Virus record (IMG/VR): IMGVR_UViG_3300036901_000025 | Location: 1-46,815 of that record | Origin: a virus | Length of the DNA: 46,815 nt | Direction: 5' to 3' (one strand) | In this document: positions 6,344-45,993 of the stretch, in pieces | Layout of the letters: every line of letters begins with the position of its first letter | How positions within the stretch are numbered: the first letter of the stretch is position 1 | Program-made: the position numbers and the translations under genes | Notes under the pieces: model-generated | Database searches by the model: none | Seen by the model: only the letters and a program-made list of their open reading frames with translations | Told to the model about the DNA's origin: nothing

Positions 6344-6563
6344 CGAAACCAATTTAAATGTACCCCTGTGGCTATCTGATACTGAAGCAGTAGCTCCTTG
6401 TCCTTGTGGTGGGCCTATGATGGGTCCCATAGCAGTAGTCAAGAGTGAACGCGGATTAAAAACCGGATATCACTATCCGGCTTGTCTAGTTTTAAGGAAG
6501 GATCACGAAGAGCTTGACGAAGAGGATATAATCGATTGGCGACCAGGGATGGAAGATCTCTAA
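6330..6563 (+). CDS. small zinc-site hypothetical protein (77 aa)
   Basis: A 77-residue acidic protein with CPCGG near residue 24 and a second Cys-containing segment (HYPAC), a possible single zinc site. The ATG is preceded by AGGAAG within the end of the helicase gene (14-base overlap), and its TAA shares a base with the primase ATG (TAATG). Its place between helicase and primase suggests a replication accessory role, but no family is recognised. Confidence 0.65.
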   Translation: MSQNDETNLNVPLWLSDTEAVAPCPCGGPMMGPIAVVKSERGLKTGYHYPACLVLRKDHEELDEEDIIDWRPGMEDL

Positions 6564-7648
6564 TGGCTAAATTAAGATATAGCGAGTTTTGTGACAACAT
6601 CGATGTGGAGGCCCTAGAAGCGGCTATAGGATTTGAAGTTCTTTACCAGACTAAGGGAAACGATATGGGCTATTGTTTTGACTTTTGGGGACTTCATAAG
6701 AATGGTGACACAACTGGCAAGCTCGGCATTCATCGAGACAAGAAGGTCTGGAATTGTTGGCTATGCGGCGGGGGAAGCCTTCTCGACCTAGCTATGCATC
6801 TAAACGATATGGATGTTGATGATGCCACCTACTGGCTATACCAGTTTGCTCACGGTGATCAGAAAGATGATGCCGAGTGGACCAGCTATCTTCTCGACAT
6901 GCTCAAGGATGTCGAAGTACGAACATCGACAATGCCTTACTTCAATGAGCGTGTTCTAGAACGCTTCAATGGCCCTCGGGACTATTTCTACGAGCGAGGA
7001 ATCTCAGATGAGGTTATCGAGGCTCACCGGCTCGGAACGAACATGATGTATCAGAAGAATTCCCCTTATAAGACGGTCGGAAATGAGAAAGTAAAACTAG
7101 ACGATGACTACGTTGGTCCAGTTGCAGTTTTTCCTCATTTCTGGAACGGCAATCTCGTCGGCTGGCAACATCGATGGATCGATTGGCCGGATACACCAAA
7201 ATGGCTCGGCAAGTGGACCAACACAACGGACTTTCCAAAAAACGAAACGATCTACAATTACGAAAATGCTTTGAAGAGCGGAGGACCGGTCTTTGTGGCC
7301 GAGTCAAATGCCTCTGTGCTCTTTCTGGAGACATGTCAATTAGTTGGGGTGTCCACTTTTGGGTCAGACGTTTCGGAAAGTCAATTGAGGCTATTACGAC
7401 GCCTTCAGCAAGGTGTCATTCTCTGTCCCGACAACGACGAAGTTGGAGGGGCCGGAAGAAAATGGCAAGGAAAGATTGCCACTTATCTTCAGCGCTACAT
7501 TCCCGTTTGGTATGTCCCTCCCGTACCTCTTGGTCAGGGTGCCGATTTGGGAGATTTTGCAAAGACGGACAATCCCTATGAAAATCTTATAACACATGTA
7601 GATCGCGCCCTGCCGTATATTGAGTTCGAACTGGACCTTAATACATGA
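6563..7648 (+). CDS. DNA primase (CHC2-type zinc finger plus TOPRIM)
   Basis: Makes RNA primers for DNA synthesis. An N-terminal zinc-binding region (about residues 30-75, ending NCWLCGGG) is followed by a linker and a TOPRIM core in which the acidic residues VFVAESNAS and CPDNDE are visible. At 361 residues it is shorter than bacterial DnaG and lacks an obvious C-terminal helicase-binding domain, as in other phage primases. The ATG at 6563 (TAATG overlap) is chosen over an in-frame upstream ATG at 6536, which would overlap more and lacks a better ribosome site. Confidence 0.87.
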   Translation: MAKLRYSEFCDNIDVEALEAAIGFEVLYQTKGNDMGYCFDFWGLHKNGDTTGKLGIHRDKKVWNCWLCGGGSLLDLAMHLNDMDVDDATYWLYQFAHGDQKDDAEWTSYLLDMLKDVEVRTSTMPYFNERVLERFNGPRDYFYERGISDEVIEAHRLGTNMMYQKNSPYKTVGNEKVKLDDDYVGPVAVFPHFWNGNLVGWQHRWIDWPDTPKWLGKWTNTTDFPKNETIYNYENALKSGGPVFVAESNASVLFLETCQLVGVSTFGSDVSESQLRLLRRLQQGVILCPDNDEVGGAGRKWQGKIATYLQRYIPVWYVPPVPLGQGADLGDFAKTDNPYENLITHVDRALPYIEFELDLNT

Positions 7649-40308: not shown

Positions 40309-41055
40309 TTACTGTGTTGCGGTAATCACCATGTAGTCATCTTCGGGTACAATTCCACCAGGAAAATCGGCGGGAGGAGTGTCTTCTGGGTCGTCTGAAT
40401 CCCAAGGATAGATATCGACCTGCTCGACCAAACCGGGAGTATTTGGAGAACTTGGAGTGAGGCTATAGAATTCACCCATTACCGGAATACGATAGCTAGT
40501 TTGATAAACAAGAACGTCTTCTGGCATCCACGGGGCAATTTGTTGCATTTCCCCATAGCCTGATGGGACGTTTTGATTGAGCACACAGTAATGCCACTCG
40601 CCATAGTAGGCATCCGTGTTTGAGGCATACATTCGATTCCAAAAGGCTTCTCCTCCGGGGGTCAATTCATACATTCCGATTACTTCAATAAAGGCATCGG
40701 CTATTGTGTCTCGGTCCAGACTTGTTAGGCCAAAGACTTCAAATTCAACATCACCCTTGTACCAGCGCTTATAATACTGGGTGACAGACGTAACCTGGCC
40801 ATCAACAATATTTCCAATGTATTCAACGTGGCCAACCCCGATGTTTGAGATGTCTCGCTCATAGAATTTAATAATGACAACGGGGAATTCCAAGAGATCA
40901 TGGGGATAGTCAACGCTAACCGTTGTTTTAGCCACTGTGGGATCGGGGTGACCATTGAAAGCGTCTCTAAGGGCCTGGGTCACAATACGCTTAACAAACG
41001 TCTTGTAACTCAGTGTCGCCATTCCTCGAATTGGAACGATAGGAGTAGTTGACAT
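40309..41055 (-). CDS. tail terminator/completion-like protein
   Basis: A 248-residue protein between the neck genes and the sheath. The N-terminal half reads like a tail-terminator fold: YKTFVKRIVTQALRDAF, VSVDYPHDLLEFPVVIIKFY, then VEFEVFGLTSLDRDTIADAF. Such proteins cap the tube and sheath at the head end. The C-terminus is an acidic Pro/Asp-rich tail of about 60 residues. Assignment is from position and this pattern; no catalytic motif is expected. Confidence 0.6.
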   Translation of the reverse strand: MSTTPIVPIRGMATLSYKTFVKRIVTQALRDAFNGHPDPTVAKTTVSVDYPHDLLEFPVVIIKFYERDISNIGVGHVEYIGNIVDGQVTSVTQYYKRWYKGDVEFEVFGLTSLDRDTIADAFIEVIGMYELTPGGEAFWNRMYASNTDAYYGEWHYCVLNQNVPSGYGEMQQIAPWMPEDVLVYQTSYRIPVMGEFYSLTPSSPNTPGLVEQVDIYPWDSDDPEDTPPADFPGGIVPEDDYMVITATQ

Positions 41056-41068
41056 TAGCGATCCGTAT

Positions 41069-41827
41069 CTACCTATCGGTAGGAACTCCCATTATAGTGG
41101 CGTCTGTTTCTGGAACACGAGACGCTTCACAATATTGTCCCACCCAAAGGCGATCTCCTCCCGCTGGGGGGAGAGAAAACTCTCGTCTACCTAAACGATC
41201 TGCCCCATGCATGGAAATTGGGTTAACCTGCTTGAGTTGATAACGTTCATGAGTTGCTATGACTCTTTCCCATGGATCGATTTCACAAATAATCATGAGA
41301 TCATTATCTCCTGATAGTGGATACCACGGCAACTGAACTCGTGCTTGCTGAGTGCGAAATAGGTTCCCCTGTACAGTAAGCTTCCAAACATCTTCTGGTA
41401 CATCGGGAAGAATTGCGTAACAGAGATATCCGGGACCATAACCTCGATATTTGGGAGCCTGTGTATAGCCTGCTCCGGGGCTAGTATCTTGGACTACAAG
41501 ATCTCCAGTGGGGCTAATCCATTCGTCCCATTTCGTCTCTAGAGAAGCAAATCCCGTTCCCGATGTAATCGCATCGTTATAAAAGGTCTGTCCATAAACG
41601 GGATCTTGGTTACCCCCCGTGATTGCAAAACCGTTATTAACATCCTCGGCGTTATACAGGTGCTTCAGGATTACGGGTGTCCCCATTCGGCGTAAAGTTT
41701 CCATTGTAGAACGTCTTCGAGAACGAACGTCGTAAGGGATTACAGGATCACCATAATAGCGGATTACATTAACTGGCCCATACTCTGGGATAATAGGGGC
41801 TGCATCACGAGAAATTAGATTACTCAT
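41069..41827 (-). CDS. neck/head-closure-like protein
   Basis: About 252 residues, beginning MSNLISRDAAPIIPEYGPVN. RRRSTMETLRRMGTPVILKH and DVNNGFAITGGNQDPVYGQT lead into a beta-rich body; I recall similar proteins in the neck region of actinophages but cannot confirm it. No catalytic motif. ATG 41827 shares a base with the stop of the upstream gene (TAATG); the longer frame to 41998 would run inside that gene and is rejected. Likely a head-completion or stopper protein. Confidence 0.6.
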   Translation of the reverse strand: MSNLISRDAAPIIPEYGPVNVIRYYGDPVIPYDVRSRRRSTMETLRRMGTPVILKHLYNAEDVNNGFAITGGNQDPVYGQTFYNDAITSGTGFASLETKWDEWISPTGDLVVQDTSPGAGYTQAPKYRGYGPGYLCYAILPDVPEDVWKLTVQGNLFRTQQARVQLPWYPLSGDNDLMIICEIDPWERVIATHERYQLKQVNPISMHGADRLGRREFSLPPAGGDRLWVGQYCEASRVPETDATIMGVPTDR

Positions 41828-42678
41828 TAGTATCCAAATCGTCCGACATTTTGAGTACGATAGGCTGCACCCGGCCATACTCTTCCTGCCTTGGACGAAA
41901 CAAGTAGCTTTGAATGACCAAGATGAAGAAATTGACGCTTCCAGAGACGAACCATTGAGATATATTCCTGATATTCGAGGGCGTAGTATTGTCGCCAACT
42001 GTTTGAATACTGGGTTCGATTCTCATATACGACTTGAGCACCGGCAGGGATTGGCTGCTCGATGTAAGAACGAATTAGGTGCATTGTGGTTCTTAGGAGA
42101 ACACCTTTTGTAAGAATTGGAAGATCGGGATTCAAACTGCCGTCGCTCATCAATTGGGTGAAGTCGGTAATAATTGCGTTCGTCATTGGCATCTGAACAT
42201 TGATATCCAAAAGAGCTTCTGGAACAAAGTCGGCAATCTTGGTCTGATCAAAGTTGTTAACCGTCTTGTCCTTCAACCATGGTCCACCTAATACGCTGTC
42301 AAAAGCATCCTCGATTCTGAGCCATACTTGATCAACCACCATTTGAACCGGATTTGAGTTAATGACAAAGGGATCTTCAACAAAGAAATTGAGAACAACC
42401 GAACGAACCTCTCCGGTTACCAAAGAGAAAGTGGCTACTGCTCGATATTCACCTAATTCTTGGGTATTGGTAAAGCGTAGAAATCCCTGTCCCCAATCAT
42501 CGATTTCGCCATATTGGGGAGTCATTATGCTACCATTGGGTAATTGAATCGTATAGCTAACGGATGCAATCTCTTCCGGATTAACGGGGATTTCGTTAAG
42601 TTGACGAAGCCCGGCATAAAGTTCCGCTGTATCTCCCTGATTTACGCGGCCAATATTTGTAGTAACACCAATAGACAT
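41827..42678 (-). CDS. head-tail adaptor-like protein with N-terminal Ig-like domain
   Basis: About 283 residues. Residues 1-105 are a beta-sandwich of Ig type (VNQGDTAELYAGLRQLNEIP, then GEYRAVATFSLVTGEVRSVV). The C-terminal part is helical (VVDQVWLRIEDAF, VLLRTTMHLIRSYIEQ, EYQEYISMVRLWKRQF), like the helical adaptor rings beneath portals. ATG 42678 is preferred to an in-frame GTG at 42684. It is the first gene after the plus-strand cassette and continues the minus-strand virion order. Confidence 0.6.
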   Translation of the reverse strand: MSIGVTTNIGRVNQGDTAELYAGLRQLNEIPVNPEEIASVSYTIQLPNGSIMTPQYGEIDDWGQGFLRFTNTQELGEYRAVATFSLVTGEVRSVVLNFFVEDPFVINSNPVQMVVDQVWLRIEDAFDSVLGGPWLKDKTVNNFDQTKIADFVPEALLDINVQMPMTNAIITDFTQLMSDGSLNPDLPILTKGVLLRTTMHLIRSYIEQPIPAGAQVVYENRTQYSNSWRQYYALEYQEYISMVRLWKRQFLHLGHSKLLVSSKAGRVWPGAAYRTQNVGRFGY

Positions 42679-42705
42679 ATTCACTTATTACGAGGCGTTT
42701 TGATG

Positions 42706-42714
42706 TGCTATACT
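42706..42714 (+). promoter_or_regulatory. extended -10 promoter, TGCTATACT, of the 42.7-44.5 kb cassette
   Basis: TGC-TATACT lies 27 bases upstream of ATG 42742, which has its own AAAGGAAAG ribosome site. Unlike the other boxes of this family, it therefore gives an mRNA with a normal leader. It lies between two divergent genes. Confidence 0.6.
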
Positions 42715-42741: not shown

Positions 42742-43218
42742 ATGTTTGAACGAGTATTGATTTATACCGAAGATGGAACCTTTCTGGGTTCTTCAATAAG
42801 GCGACAAGGAGCAATCAAACTTTACACCCAGAATTACTGGACGGAACAGGAAGAGCCGCTGTTTCAGCAACAGCTAAACGATCTCAATCGAAATCAAGCT
42901 ATTAGGGGGGTTTGGCCCGACGCTAGAGATCCAGAAGTTCAACAACTTTTAAACGACCCGAATTTCTACCCTGTCGAGCTTCATGAGATCGAAGTAATCG
43001 ATGAGGACAATAGCTATCTCGTATGGGAACAGGTACCCGCTGTAGATGACTCTGGAGCGGCTCTGGTGCCCCTCCAATTGGTTAACGGGGAGAACCTTGA
43101 TGAGAAGGCTTCTGTGATCGTTCACAAAAATATACTGGCTCCTGTGCGGCCATCAGAGGTCTTGGAGCGGACCCAAAAAGCATGTGCGGCAATTGCTGAG
43201 AAACGATCTGGAGCCTAA
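42742..43218 (+). CDS. hypothetical protein, first gene of the plus-strand cassette (158 aa)
   Basis: A soluble, acidic protein with a beta-strand start (MFERVLIYTEDGTFLGSSIR), a Gln/Asn-rich helical middle and a beta-rich second half (PVELHEIEVIDEDNSYLVWE). The C-terminus is a short helix (SEVLERTQKACAAIAEKRSG). No family is recognised. It has a strong ribosome site and lies behind its own promoter, antisense to the surrounding virion genes. Confidence 0.72.
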   Translation: MFERVLIYTEDGTFLGSSIRRQGAIKLYTQNYWTEQEEPLFQQQLNDLNRNQAIRGVWPDARDPEVQQLLNDPNFYPVELHEIEVIDEDNSYLVWEQVPAVDDSGAALVPLQLVNGENLDEKASVIVHKNILAPVRPSEVLERTQKACAAIAEKRSGA

Positions 43219-43219
43219 A

Positions 43220-43423
43220 ATGGTAATACCTGATCGTCTTCATGGATTGCGTTATCGTGCCTGGTCACGACTATTGCACCGATACTCCTTTCATCATACT
43301 CGTCGGATCGGCCCACTACCGGGTGGCGACTATATTCATCGCTGCGATTGGTGCGGAGTATCGCGTACCGAGTATCGGGGCACACCGCCATATAAGCCGC
43401 TGTCTGGTACAATAGACTTGTGA
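43220..43423 (+). CDS. small zinc-motif protein (67 aa)
   Basis: An Arg/His-rich protein beginning MVIPDRLHGLRYRAWSRLLH, with CDWCG near residue 45 and several flanking His residues, which could make a small zinc site. GGAG stands at good distance before ATG 43220, one base after the upstream stop. The last codons contain the -10 box of the downstream gene. It is short, so some doubt remains that it is expressed. Confidence 0.5.
   Translation: MVIPDRLHGLRYRAWSRLLHRYSFHHTRRIGPLPGGDYIHRCDWCGVSRTEYRGTPPYKPLSGTIDL
43405..43413 (+). promoter_or_regulatory. internal extended -10 promoter, TGGTACAAT
   Basis: TGG-TACAAT lies in the end of the small zinc-motif gene. Six bases later a GTG opens a 13-codon frame that leads into the phosphoesterase gene, the same spacing as the leaderless promoters of this phage. 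No -35 is visible. Confidence 0.45.
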
Positions 43424-43461
43424 AAATCGTAGCCACGGGTAAATTTTTAGAGGGTGGGTGA
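43420..43461 (+). CDS. 13-codon leader peptide frame before the phosphoesterase
   Basis: GTG 43420 opens MKIVATGKFLEGG and stops in GTGA at the phosphoesterase start, a four-base overlap of stop and start. A -10 box lies 6 bases upstream, so the frame would be translated from the very end of a leaderless mRNA and could hand ribosomes to the next gene. The peptide may also be chance. Confidence 0.35.
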   Translation: MKIVATGKFLEGG

Positions 43462-44174
43462 TTTACATCCGTATAATTGCCACGTCAGATACGCATGGAA
43501 AGCTGCCCTACATGGGTAGTAAGGAAGACAACATCGATCTCGCAATTTTCGTAGGTGATGTTTGTCCCATGACTGATCATAATCCAATCGCCCAGTTCAA
43601 GTGGCTTCGAGATACGTGGCTTCCATACCTACGTGAACTACCGGTTAAAAATGTGGTCTGGATCTTTGGCAACCACGACTTTGTTGGGGATATCCGAACA
43701 CCAATCCGCAATTATGTCGATGGCTTCAAACCGGAAGAGCTATATGACCTACTTTACGGAGATCCGCGAATTCACTATCTGGAAAATGAATCGACAGTCA
43801 TCGATGGAATTAAAATTTACGGATATCCCTATGTTGGCAATCTAATCGGATGGGCATTCAACCGGGAACCCAGCGTACTAGAGGATTATGCCTCTAGAAT
43901 TCCTCCCTGTGATATCCTGGTCACCCATGCCCCTCCATATGGATTCGGGGACAAAACTACCGGAGGATACTATGTGGGCGATACCTACTTATCAGAGAAT
44001 TTGAAACGCATCAATCCGAAGCTCGTTCTCTGCGGCCATATTCATGAGGGTCGGGGGGAATATCGCCACCCAAACATTGAGTTGGGCATTAATAACGTCG
44101 CCTATCTTAATGAGCGATACGAGCATAAGCTACATCTTATTCCGGTAAGGTTTGAAATCGATGCAACTGATTAA
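43458..44174 (+). CDS. calcineurin-like metallophosphoesterase, MPPED-type
   Basis: A 238-residue two-metal phosphoesterase. All five blocks are present: SDTH (D11, H13), GD (D34), GNHD (N72, H73), THAPPYG (H157) and CGHIHEGRG (H194, H196). The THxPP and GHIHEG wording resembles the MPPED1/MPPED2 and class III cyclic-nucleotide phosphodiesterase branch rather than the PP2A-like phage phosphatases. Substrate unproven. It uses a GTG start after AGAGGGTGG. It is co-directional with three other small genes in an early-type cassette within the virion operon and overlaps the membrane-protein gene by 14 bases. Confidence 0.9.
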   Translation: MIYIRIIATSDTHGKLPYMGSKEDNIDLAIFVGDVCPMTDHNPIAQFKWLRDTWLPYLRELPVKNVVWIFGNHDFVGDIRTPIRNYVDGFKPEELYDLLYGDPRIHYLENESTVIDGIKIYGYPYVGNLIGWAFNREPSVLEDYASRIPPCDILVTHAPPYGFGDKTTGGYYVGDTYLSENLKRINPKLVLCGHIHEGRGEYRHPNIELGINNVAYLNERYEHKLHLIPVRFEIDATD

Positions 44175-44487
44175 GACTACATTATCACCAGAGATTCTTC
44201 ATGGCGATCTGAAGATTGGAAAGCGGAGAATTCCTCGAAGGGTGATCTTTCCCACGATTATAGCTCTTCTGGTCGTTGTGGGATTACTATCGCCGCTGTT
44301 TGATCTTCATCACATCCACGGATTCCCCGGACCAAAGCTCTACACCCAACATCTATTTTTTGACGGGATCGCAGATGCGGGAGGATTTTATGCTAGCTCG
44401 TTCTGCAAACACTGGTACCATAAGGTCCCAATTGCTGTGGGATTTGCCCTAATCTCAACTTTTGCTCTTGTTACTCTAGTCGGTTAG
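44161..44487 (+). CDS. small membrane protein at the end of the cassette (108 aa)
   Basis: Two hydrophobic segments can serve as membrane helices: RVIFPTIIALLVVVGLLSPL near residues 28-47 and VPIAVGFALISTFALVTLVG at the C-terminal end. The loop between them holds His and a single Cys. It overlaps the phosphoesterase gene and ends 4 bases inside the stop region of the GH16 gene on the other strand. It could be a membrane anchor or partner for the phosphoesterase, a holin or an exclusion protein; the sequence does not decide. Confidence 0.65.
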   Translation: MQLIKTTLSPEILHGDLKIGKRRIPRRVIFPTIIALLVVVGLLSPLFDLHHIHGFPGPKLYTQHLFFDGIADAGGFYASSFCKHWYHKVPIAVGFALISTFALVTLVG

Positions 44488-45671
44488 GCCAGCGCCCACA
44501 ACGTCACACGAGAAATCGTTGTCGGGCTATCGCTCGCCTGGAACGCCCCGGCTGTGCCGCTGGAGAACAGCAGGTACATGTCGGATCCACTGTCGTTGGT
44601 TGGGTAAGTAAGAACGTTCACCCCGTTCCAGATGATGTAGTTCGTGCCGTTAGTGCGGAGAACGCCGTACTTGACCCACTGGCCCGGATACTGGGGGCCT
44701 GGCGTGTGGTTCGCGCTGTCGCCCGCCGATTCGTGGTAGTTCGAGGTCCAGGCGTTCGGACCGTCGAACTCGATGATGTCGATCTCCCCACCGTTTGGGT
44801 CGCCCTGCGCGGCGGTCCAGAACGTGAACCAGTTCGCGTCCGCCGGACAGTTGAGCAGAGCTTCGGCATAGGCGTACTGGAACTGGAATCCCTTACTGTT
44901 CTGGCGAAGGTCCGTGGTCGCTATCGCGCCGATCGAGCCGTTGTCATACGACGAGAACACCATGCCTTCGTCGGTGAACGAGATGTTGGCCTTGTCGAAG
45001 TTCGCTTTCCCGTTGAACTCTTGGCCACCGAACCAACTGTTGTTCCAAACCTCACCCCACGTCGGCTCGCCTAGAGTAGCGAAGTCGTAGTCGTAGAGGA
45101 GTGAGTCTGCGTTGACAAGTGATGCGAGATCGGCTGGCAGCGACGGCTGGTAGGTGCCCGGTGTGGGAGTTGGTACAGGAGTAGGTGTTGGAGTAGGTGT
45201 TGGAGTAGGTGTTGGCGCTGCTGTAACTACGAGATCAAGGGGTGCTTTTGCTGTAACGCCTTTAGAGTCCGTTACTTGGATTTGGGCGACATAGGTGTTG
45301 ACGCCCGACGTAATGGTACCGGTAATAACACCCGTACTATCACCAATGGTTAGGCTCCAAGGAAGGCCACCTACATTTTCCCAAGTATATGGGGGAGTAC
45401 CACCGGTTGCTTCTACAGTTGCCAAATATTCGGACCCTTCAACACCAGCGGGTATCGAAGTTGTTTCAATAACAAGTGCTGGAGGAGTTGGTACGGGAGT
45501 AGGAGCAGGCTGAACGGCTCCTGGAGTCAACGTAATTGTTAAGTCCTTACCAAGCGTAATGGTTTGGGCCTTCTCGGCAACAGTAGGAGCCTTTGCCGGT
45601 GCATGTACCTTTACAGCTACTTCAAGCTCTTCACCAGAAGAGAATTTTATACCAATTGGGGGATTACTCAT
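44484..45671 (-). CDS. head-side fibre with Ig-like domain, PT linker and GH16 glucanase domain
   Basis: A 395-residue modular protein. N-terminal ~60 residues of unknown type, probably the virion anchor; an Ig-like (He_PIG-type) domain about 70-150 (TGGTPPYTWENVGGLPWSLT); a Pro-Thr repeat linker; and a C-terminal GH16/concanavalin-like domain with EIDIIEFDG near 296-304, which holds both catalytic Glu residues intact. GH16 enzymes cut beta-1,3/1,4-glucans or galactans. The GH16 part is visibly GC-richer than the rest of the gene, suggesting recent acquisition. ATG 45671 overlaps the upstream gene by 8 bases; the longer frame to 45701 is less likely. Confidence 0.8.
   Translation of the reverse strand: MSNPPIGIKFSSGEELEVAVKVHAPAKAPTVAEKAQTITLGKDLTITLTPGAVQPAPTPVPTPPALVIETTSIPAGVEGSEYLATVEATGGTPPYTWENVGGLPWSLTIGDSTGVITGTITSGVNTYVAQIQVTDSKGVTAKAPLDLVVTAAPTPTPTPTPTPTPVPTPTPGTYQPSLPADLASLVNADSLLYDYDFATLGEPTWGEVWNNSWFGGQEFNGKANFDKANISFTDEGMVFSSYDNGSIGAIATTDLRQNSKGFQFQYAYAEALLNCPADANWFTFWTAAQGDPNGGEIDIIEFDGPNAWTSNYHESAGDSANHTPGPQYPGQWVKYGVLRTNGTNYIIWNGVNVLTYPTNDSGSDMYLLFSSGTAGAFQASDSPTTISRVTLWALA
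45178..45213 (-). repeat. three perfect 12-bp tandem repeats coding for the PT linker
   Basis: GGAGTAGGTGTT occurs three times without a mismatch, coding on the minus strand for Thr-Pro repeats between the Ig-like and GH16 domains. Such arrays change length by slippage, so linker length probably varies between relatives. The junction of foreign and native DNA lies just beyond. Confidence 0.75.
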
Positions 45672-45993
45672 CGGTCGGAGTTTCTTCCTCGGAAGAATCA
45701 TCCTTGATTTCTACTTCTGGCTCAACCTTCTTTGGTCGGCCCTTAGGCTTCGCTTCCCCTGGCTTAACCGGCTTGTCGCCAATTACGGCTGGCTCGGGAT
45801 CTCGTGCAATATCCTGCTGATCAGGATGAACAACCGGGGTCCCTACTGGACGAGCCTTGACGGCGGAGAGGTTAGCCTTGTCGGTCAAGTCTTGATAAAA
45901 CTTAACGATGTCAGCAACGGCTTCCTCTTCAAGAGCCTTAGCATCTGCAAACGCCTTTTCTGCTTCCTTCAAAAAATCTTCCCATTCAGACAT
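45664..45993 (-). CDS. small helical protein with AT-hook-like motif (109 aa)
   Basis: The N-terminal 45 residues are one long charged helix (MSEWEDFLKEAEKAFADAKA). The rest is Pro/Lys/Glu-rich, with KPKGRPKK near residue 84, which looks like an AT-hook, and an acidic end. It could be a head-associated or DNA-contacting protein. A good AAGGAAA ribosome site precedes the ATG. It overlaps the fibre gene by 8 bases. No family recognised. Confidence 0.65.
   Translation of the reverse strand: MSEWEDFLKEAEKAFADAKALEEEAVADIVKFYQDLTDKANLSAVKARPVGTPVVHPDQQDIARDPEPAVIGDKPVKPGEAKPKGRPKKVEPEVEIKDDSSEEETPTDE

Follow-up and report, generated by a model that had tools for sequence, protein, structure and literature searches.

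A conserved cassette with an MPPED-type metallophosphoesterase gene amid the virion genes of an uncultured phage with a contractile tail

Introduction

The MPPED protein of the fly is a Mn2+ phosphodiesterase with undetectable phosphomonoesterase activity which cleaves 2',3'-cAMP better than 3',5'-cAMP or cGMP (PMC10547211). In phages, a counter-defence phenotype has been published for the metallophosphoesterase gp48 of mycobacteriophage A10ZJ24, a protein with phosphodiesterase activity and early expression (PMC12287305). The MPPED family itself is already known and its members are common in phages, where they are uncharacterised. PADLOC includes this family among its candidate defence genes of bacteria (PDC-S10), and a literature search found no paper naming PDC-S10.

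Here we describe a conserved, separately promoted set of genes which is located between virion genes and includes a member of this family. It was detected in the IMG/VR record IMGVR_UViG_3300036901_000025, a 46.8-kb virus fragment that was analysed at its full length of 46,815 nucleotides (hereafter the window).

Genomic context

The first 20 kb of the window encode RNR, helicase, primase, DNA polymerase, a recombinase and a sigma-like factor and are followed by a long minus-strand stretch encoding baseplate, tail and head proteins. These virion proteins are distant kin of those of the Bxz1- and Myrna-type myoviruses of Actinobacteria, with approximately 26-32% identity. The window originates from an uncultured contractile-tailed phage; neither Rfam families nor tRNA genes were detected in it. 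As the initial annotation had pointed out, with coordinates that proved correct, plus-strand open reading frames (ORFs) interrupt the minus-strand virion region at positions 42742-44487. This cassette lies between the minus-strand phrog_2791 gene and the minus-strand genes from position 44484 on (Table 1).

The flanking gene at 44484-45701 has a GC content of 55% (local maximum 60%) compared with approximately 45% in its surroundings. Its Ig-like domain was assigned to He_PIG, while weak laminarinase-type matches were obtained for its C-terminal part. The gene was not found at the cassette site in the relatives compared and is probably a recent acquisition.

Table 1. Features of the cassette and of its flanks in the window
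Feature	Position	Strand	Remarks
phrog_2791 virion gene	41827..42684	-	flanking, divergent from cassette; homologue of Myrna gp118 and LinStu gp120
Extended -10 element TGCTATACT	42706..42714	+	36 nt before ORF158; conserved
ORF158, cassette anchor protein	42742..43218	+	motif WPDARDP; homologues in 12 viral loci, 34-60% identity
ORF67, doubtful gene	43220..43423	+	67 codons; sits where relatives have PPP-type phosphatase
Second extended -10-like element TGGTACAAT	43405..43413	+	15 nt before GTG 43420, 53 nt before MPPED start
MPPED-type binuclear metallophosphodiesterase	43458..44174	+	238 aa; GTG start
TM111, two-helix membrane protein	44161..44487	+	conserved H..H-FDG.ADAGG-FC.H loop; alignment, hydropathy
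Flanking gene	44484..45701	-	Ig-like domain, Pro-Thr linker, GC-rich C-terminal part

Gene content of the cassette

Three of the four plus-strand genes proposed initially were confirmed as genuine. Homologues of ORF158, the MPPED-type enzyme and TM111 are encoded at the same junction in a related locus, L002, with identities of 55-60%. The in-frame codon scores of ORF158 (0.18) and of the phosphoesterase (0.12) were positive and that of TM111 was approximately neutral (0.03). The fourth ORF, ORF67, is doubtful: its codon score was negative, each of the five other frames scored better, and none of the relatives examined yielded a homologue. The assumption that this region is a remnant of a PPP-type phosphatase, of the macro-domain (using the L002 sequences) or of an MPPED enzyme was not supported either, the lowest p value among 18 protein frame tests being 0.035.

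For TM111 the start codon ATG 44161 was favoured over TTG 44152. Its homologues were detected in nine loci, none of them in phage isolates or, according to pattern scans as a limited method, in bacterial genomes; it was also absent from the records of all ten other MPPED phages inspected. Pattern scans of the same limited kind revealed no MPPED gene in bacterial genomes. The AlphaFold2 (AF2) model of ORF158 was of low confidence and its structural comparison gave no match.

The MPPED-type enzyme

The protein encoded at 43458-44174 matched the Pfam family Metallophos (PF00149, 3e-15) and phrog_1649 (9e-16). The initial annotation had described a complete metal site and the THxPP/GHIHEG wording, and both hold: the ligands D11, H13, D34, N72, H73, H157, H194 and H196, which lie in the motifs DTHG, GDV, GNHD, THAPP and GHIHEG, are invariant in all 18 family members aligned. 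The calcineurin-like fold is accompanied by all binuclear ligands (DxH, GD, GNH, H, GHxH). Keppetipola and Shuman (2008) reportedly found the histidine of the GNH motif to be a determinant of the activity on 2',3'-cyclic nucleotides.

The proposed membership in the MPPED family was borne out by sequence, profile and predicted fold. Rat MPPED2 provided the only PDB chains matched by sequence (1e-14), the match becoming stronger with a profile of 18 relatives (2e-28); the best match was to the G252H mutant, with wild-type rat MPPED2 slightly weaker. The AF2 model of the enzyme had a mean pLDDT of 91, and the three MPPED2 entries 3rl3, 3rl4 and 3rl5 were its top Foldseek matches (E approximately 1e-15, TM 0.76, 28% identity). 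The next fold match was Dbr1 (2e-7), and Mre11 was also weaker. The NCBIfam models of CpdA and YfcE remained far under their cut-offs. According to the PDB sequence and fold matches, the enzyme is nearer to MPPED than to Rv0805, CpdA, YfcE or the PPP phosphatases, and its closest solved relative by both sequence and predicted fold is rat MPPED2.

Conservation of the locus

Relatives were identified by IMG/VR scans with ORF158, the MPPED enzyme and TM111 and represent an uncultured clade, several contigs of which are 160-170 kb long. The junction is identical across these relatives, with the cassette divergent from the phrog_2791 gene. The order ORF158, PPP-type metallophosphatase, TM111 was found in L002, L004, L005, L006, L011, L012 and L013, so that a cassette of ORF158, a metallophosphatase and TM111 recurs elsewhere with the same genes, order and junction. 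L007-L010 encode ORF158 and the PPP enzyme and lack TM111. In the isolated Bxz1- and Myrna-type phages no opposite-strand cassette was present at the homologous site.

An MPPED gene occupies the cassette site in the window and in L002 only, L002 encoding both PPP and MPPED; no PPP gene was found elsewhere in the window, which is a 46.8-kb fragment. L014 encodes its MPPED elsewhere in the genome, adjoining a dNMP kinase, and has at the cassette site an AAA and M41 (FtsH-like) protease (L014:5191-6720) which follows a shortened relative of ORF158 in which the WPDARDP motif is retained. Stability thus resides in the locus, with the MPPED gene as a variable member; most relatives have a PPP enzyme at the site. 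A recurrence of the phosphoesterase and membrane protein pair in other phages, suggested initially as a check, was accordingly detected, mostly with the PPP enzyme and with MPPED only in L002. As the membrane protein accompanies PPP and no MPPED in most relatives, the pairing is a property of the locus and is not specific to MPPED.

The PPP enzyme carries the motifs GDCHGH, GDLGH, GNHD, THAGLH and FGH. Its family profile had a single PDB match, the metallophosphoesterase 4j6o (7.6e-7), which we take to be the bacterial Pnkp phosphatase domain. Among the NCBIfam models, Pnkp was matched at 2e-5, with both the ApaH and the Pnkp models far under their cut-offs. Given that two metallophosphatase families are swapped in one slot, overlapping substrates would be expected if the slot has one function.

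Several further features were observed in the relatives. In L002 a 43-residue ORF between the PPP and MPPED genes (L002:4873-5004) resembles the N-terminus of a macro-domain (OARD1, 1e-3; RNase III inhibitor, 2e-3), and its end coincides with the start codon of MPPED; it may be a truncated ADP-ribose-binding gene or a remnant. The minus-strand virion gene homologues of 40309-41055 match in two pieces with extra sequence between them in L005, L007, L011, L012 and L013, and those of 41827-42684 likewise in L007, L011, L012 and L013, but not in L005. The split points are constant, at about residues 80-90 and 52-59, and may reflect insertions, introns or large loops. ORFs resembling HNH or LAGLIDADG homing endonucleases were recognised by eye beside the junction in L004 (4724-5005), L005 (4300-4713) and L012 (4571-5008). 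Within the cassette of L005 an FmdB-type zinc-ribbon protein is encoded (6495-6767), a similar sequence being visible by eye in L013.

Putative promoters

The initial annotation had assigned extended -10 promoters of their own to the plus-strand genes. This applies to TGCTATACT, which is conserved and was detected in L002 35 nt ahead of the ORF158 homologue, whereas TGGTACAAT is present in the window and has no counterpart in L002. In L007, L009, L011, L013 (TGTTATACT) and L004 (TGCTAGACT) the element TGCTATACT, or a sequence differing from it by one base, is located 15-16 nt ahead of ORF158; with this spacing transcription would begin at about the ATG and produce a leaderless transcript. A generic sigma-70 scan of the region remained at or below chance, and the first promoter is supported by its conservation instead.

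Copies of TGYTATAMT were more frequent than those of the reversed control in the 160-kb contig of L002 (15 vs 5) and in the contig of L011 (19 vs 5). Seven of the 15 copies in the L002 contig lie 15-17 nt ahead of an ATG, with no recognisable virion gene among them; inspection of the products by eye pointed, among others, to a UvrD-type helicase, a polynucleotide kinase and an RtcB-like protein. Extended -10 sites matching at 5 or more of 6 positions were found in the window upstream of five genes, none of which is a recognised virion gene. Based on these patterns a separate, early-type expression of the cassette seems plausible, with indirect support for an early promoter of the host-polymerase type. 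The occurrence of TGCTATAMT 15-17 nt before ATG at many sites of the L002 contig (G001) is suggestive of a leaderless promoter class, which could be used for mapping early genes in this clade.

Homologues in other phages and on plasmids

The combination had initially been regarded as unlike housekeeping phage genes, a view which is contradicted by the homologues in crAss-like, Flavobacterium, Tunturiibacter and Stenotrophomonas phages. These adjoin nucleotide and replication genes, namely those for thymidylate synthase, dNMP kinase, primase, a Cas4-like exonuclease or MazG-type pyrophosphohydrolases, or genes of NAD salvage. The MPPED gene is neighboured by genes for DNA polymerase I, thioredoxin, thymidylate synthase, dUTPase and RNR in cr108_1, by RNR and ThyA in immuto, by primase, Holliday junction resolvase and Cas4-like exonuclease in the crAss-like cr1_1 and cr60_1, by a primase/helicase in elemo, and by dNMP kinase and nucleoside deoxyribosyltransferase in Tunturi_5. 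In Stenotrophomonas phage DLP6 it adjoins ADP-ribose pyrophosphatase and nicotinamide phosphoribosyltransferase, and in AhSzq-1 a second phosphoesterase. Among the 72 neighbours in IMG/VR loci of further homologues, nucleotide pyrophosphohydrolases (4) and thymidylate synthase (3) were the named families seen most often, and DNA ligase also occurred. Phage MPPED genes thus tend to be surrounded by genes of replication and nucleotide metabolism, as judged from raw counts without a control set.

The window enzyme matched the PADLOC model PDC-S10 at 2.2e-41, covering profile positions 10-213 of 223, and all 18 family members also matched it; at E 0.001 the model gave matches in 11 of the 14 genomes used as controls as well. 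Three plasmid homologues adjoin a 3'-5' exonuclease, a HipA-type toxin gene or DUF262/WYL genes, a neighbourhood that points to conflict rather than metabolism.

Predicted role of the cassette

We favour the reading that the enzyme is an early nucleotide phosphodiesterase with an accessory function, encoded in a cassette kept between virion genes, and assign it a probability of about 0.5. The cassette would represent an accessory early-type transcription unit which this myovirus clade retains between its virion genes. The enzyme is predicted to be an active Mn2+-type phosphodiesterase of the MPPED family that is presumably made early, from the extended -10 promoter, and cleaves small nucleotide phosphodiesters, its preferred substrates being 2',3'-cyclic nucleotides as the best guess and 3',5'-cyclic nucleotides as the second. 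The presumed benefit to the phage would be that nucleotides or the products of RNA breakdown are processed while the host is taken over, with MPPED filling the slot that most relatives give to the PPP-type metallophosphoesterase. On balance, the gene contexts speak for nucleotide processing in phages, the case for host conflict being the smaller but a genuine one, and the nucleotide-gene context of the distant homologues may not be transferable to this locus.

The degradation of a defence messenger, proposed in the initial annotation, is a real rival reading and a possible one, although the odds seem to be against it. The phosphodiesterase, or PPP in the relatives, would destroy an immune nucleotide messenger or product, with TM111 acting at the membrane. 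A role in the conflict between phage and host is possible because the enzyme family is the PADLOC candidate PDC-S10, matched by all family members; PDC-S10 is however a candidate family only, and its model is also found in most control genomes. The plasmid homologues beside exonuclease, toxin, DUF262 and WYL genes, the DLP6 homologue with its neighbours ADP-ribose pyrophosphatase and nicotinamide phosphoribosyltransferase, and the macro-domain-like fragment of 43 residues directly ahead of the L002 enzyme are consistent with counter-defence, but the phage contexts of the family are mainly metabolic. A phage metallophosphoesterase with such a phenotype has been published (PMC12287305), yet Bxb1 gp47, a published member of the gp48 family, could not be aligned with the window enzyme. 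The variable enzyme slot beside unchanging anchor genes, a pattern shared with other accessory loci, is likewise consistent with counter-defence. A more far-reaching version, which we regard as unlikely, would see a clade-specific counter-defence locus in the virion operon, in which one or the other metallophosphoesterase (Pnkp-phosphatase-like PPP, MPPED/PDC-S10) would be joined to a constant anchor of ORF158 and TM111, the exchangeable enzymes attacking different targets among immune nucleotides or nucleic-acid ends and the locus being expressed early from leaderless extended -10 promoters.

It seems similarly unlikely that the enzyme processes RNA or DNA ends, acting on 2',3'-cyclic phosphate ends or as an Mre11/SbcD-like nuclease alongside phage repair genes. 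Such a role would agree with the Cas4-like exonuclease and Holliday junction resolvase genes beside the crAss-like homologues, with Dbr1 and Mre11 as weaker matches in fold, with the resemblance of the slot's PPP enzyme to the Pnkp phosphatase and with the polynucleotide kinase-like and RtcB-like proteins seen by eye in the L002 contig. However, the compact enzyme of 238 aa has no capping or DNA-binding domain, and neither Dbr1 nor Mre11 comes near the fit obtained with MPPED2.

A cargo (moron) gene of the window and L002 lineage, inserted at a tolerant site and without a strong selected role in infection, is improbable: MPPED occurs at the site in two clade members only and the site also takes the AAA-M41 protease (L014) and the Ig-like gene (window), but all catalytic residues are kept between window and L002 at 57-60% identity, which suggests selection on the enzyme.

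The locus provides a defined and conserved setting for asking whether phage enzymes of the MPPED family serve nucleotide recycling or the destruction of immune signals.

Comparison with described systems

Among the known phage anti-immune nucleases, the Acb1 (2H) and Apyc1 (MBL) types were ruled out, since the fold of the window enzyme is calcineurin-like. A10ZJ24 gp48 and Bxb1 gp47 are phage metallophosphoesterases too, but belong to a different subfamily. Membership in their family was rejected in a homology test that used Bxb1 gp47, and not A10ZJ24 gp48, as the family member: beyond pieces common to the superfamily gp47 was unalignable (best BLASTP piece 20 bits, E 0.04). PDC-S10 is a candidate single-gene defence of bacteria, whereas the window gene is located in a phage and its neighbours carry no defence annotation.

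The bacterial Pnkp differs from the PPP enzyme of the relatives, which is a stand-alone protein without kinase or ligase domain and was not found in the window. The phrog_1649 metallo-phosphoesterases of crAss-like and Flavobacterium phages represent the same family as the window enzyme, with 28-34% identity and complete motifs. Unlike these proteins, which are encoded within replication or nucleotide clusters, the window enzyme is encoded within a virion operon and has its own promoter.

The phage enzyme shares the GHIHEG and THxPP wording with MPPED2, is shorter and lacks the N-terminal extension. At the GHIH position it has a histidine where the wild-type rat protein has a glycine. As the histidines of both GNHD and GHIH are present, the phage enzyme is predicted to be a fully competent relative of MPPED2.
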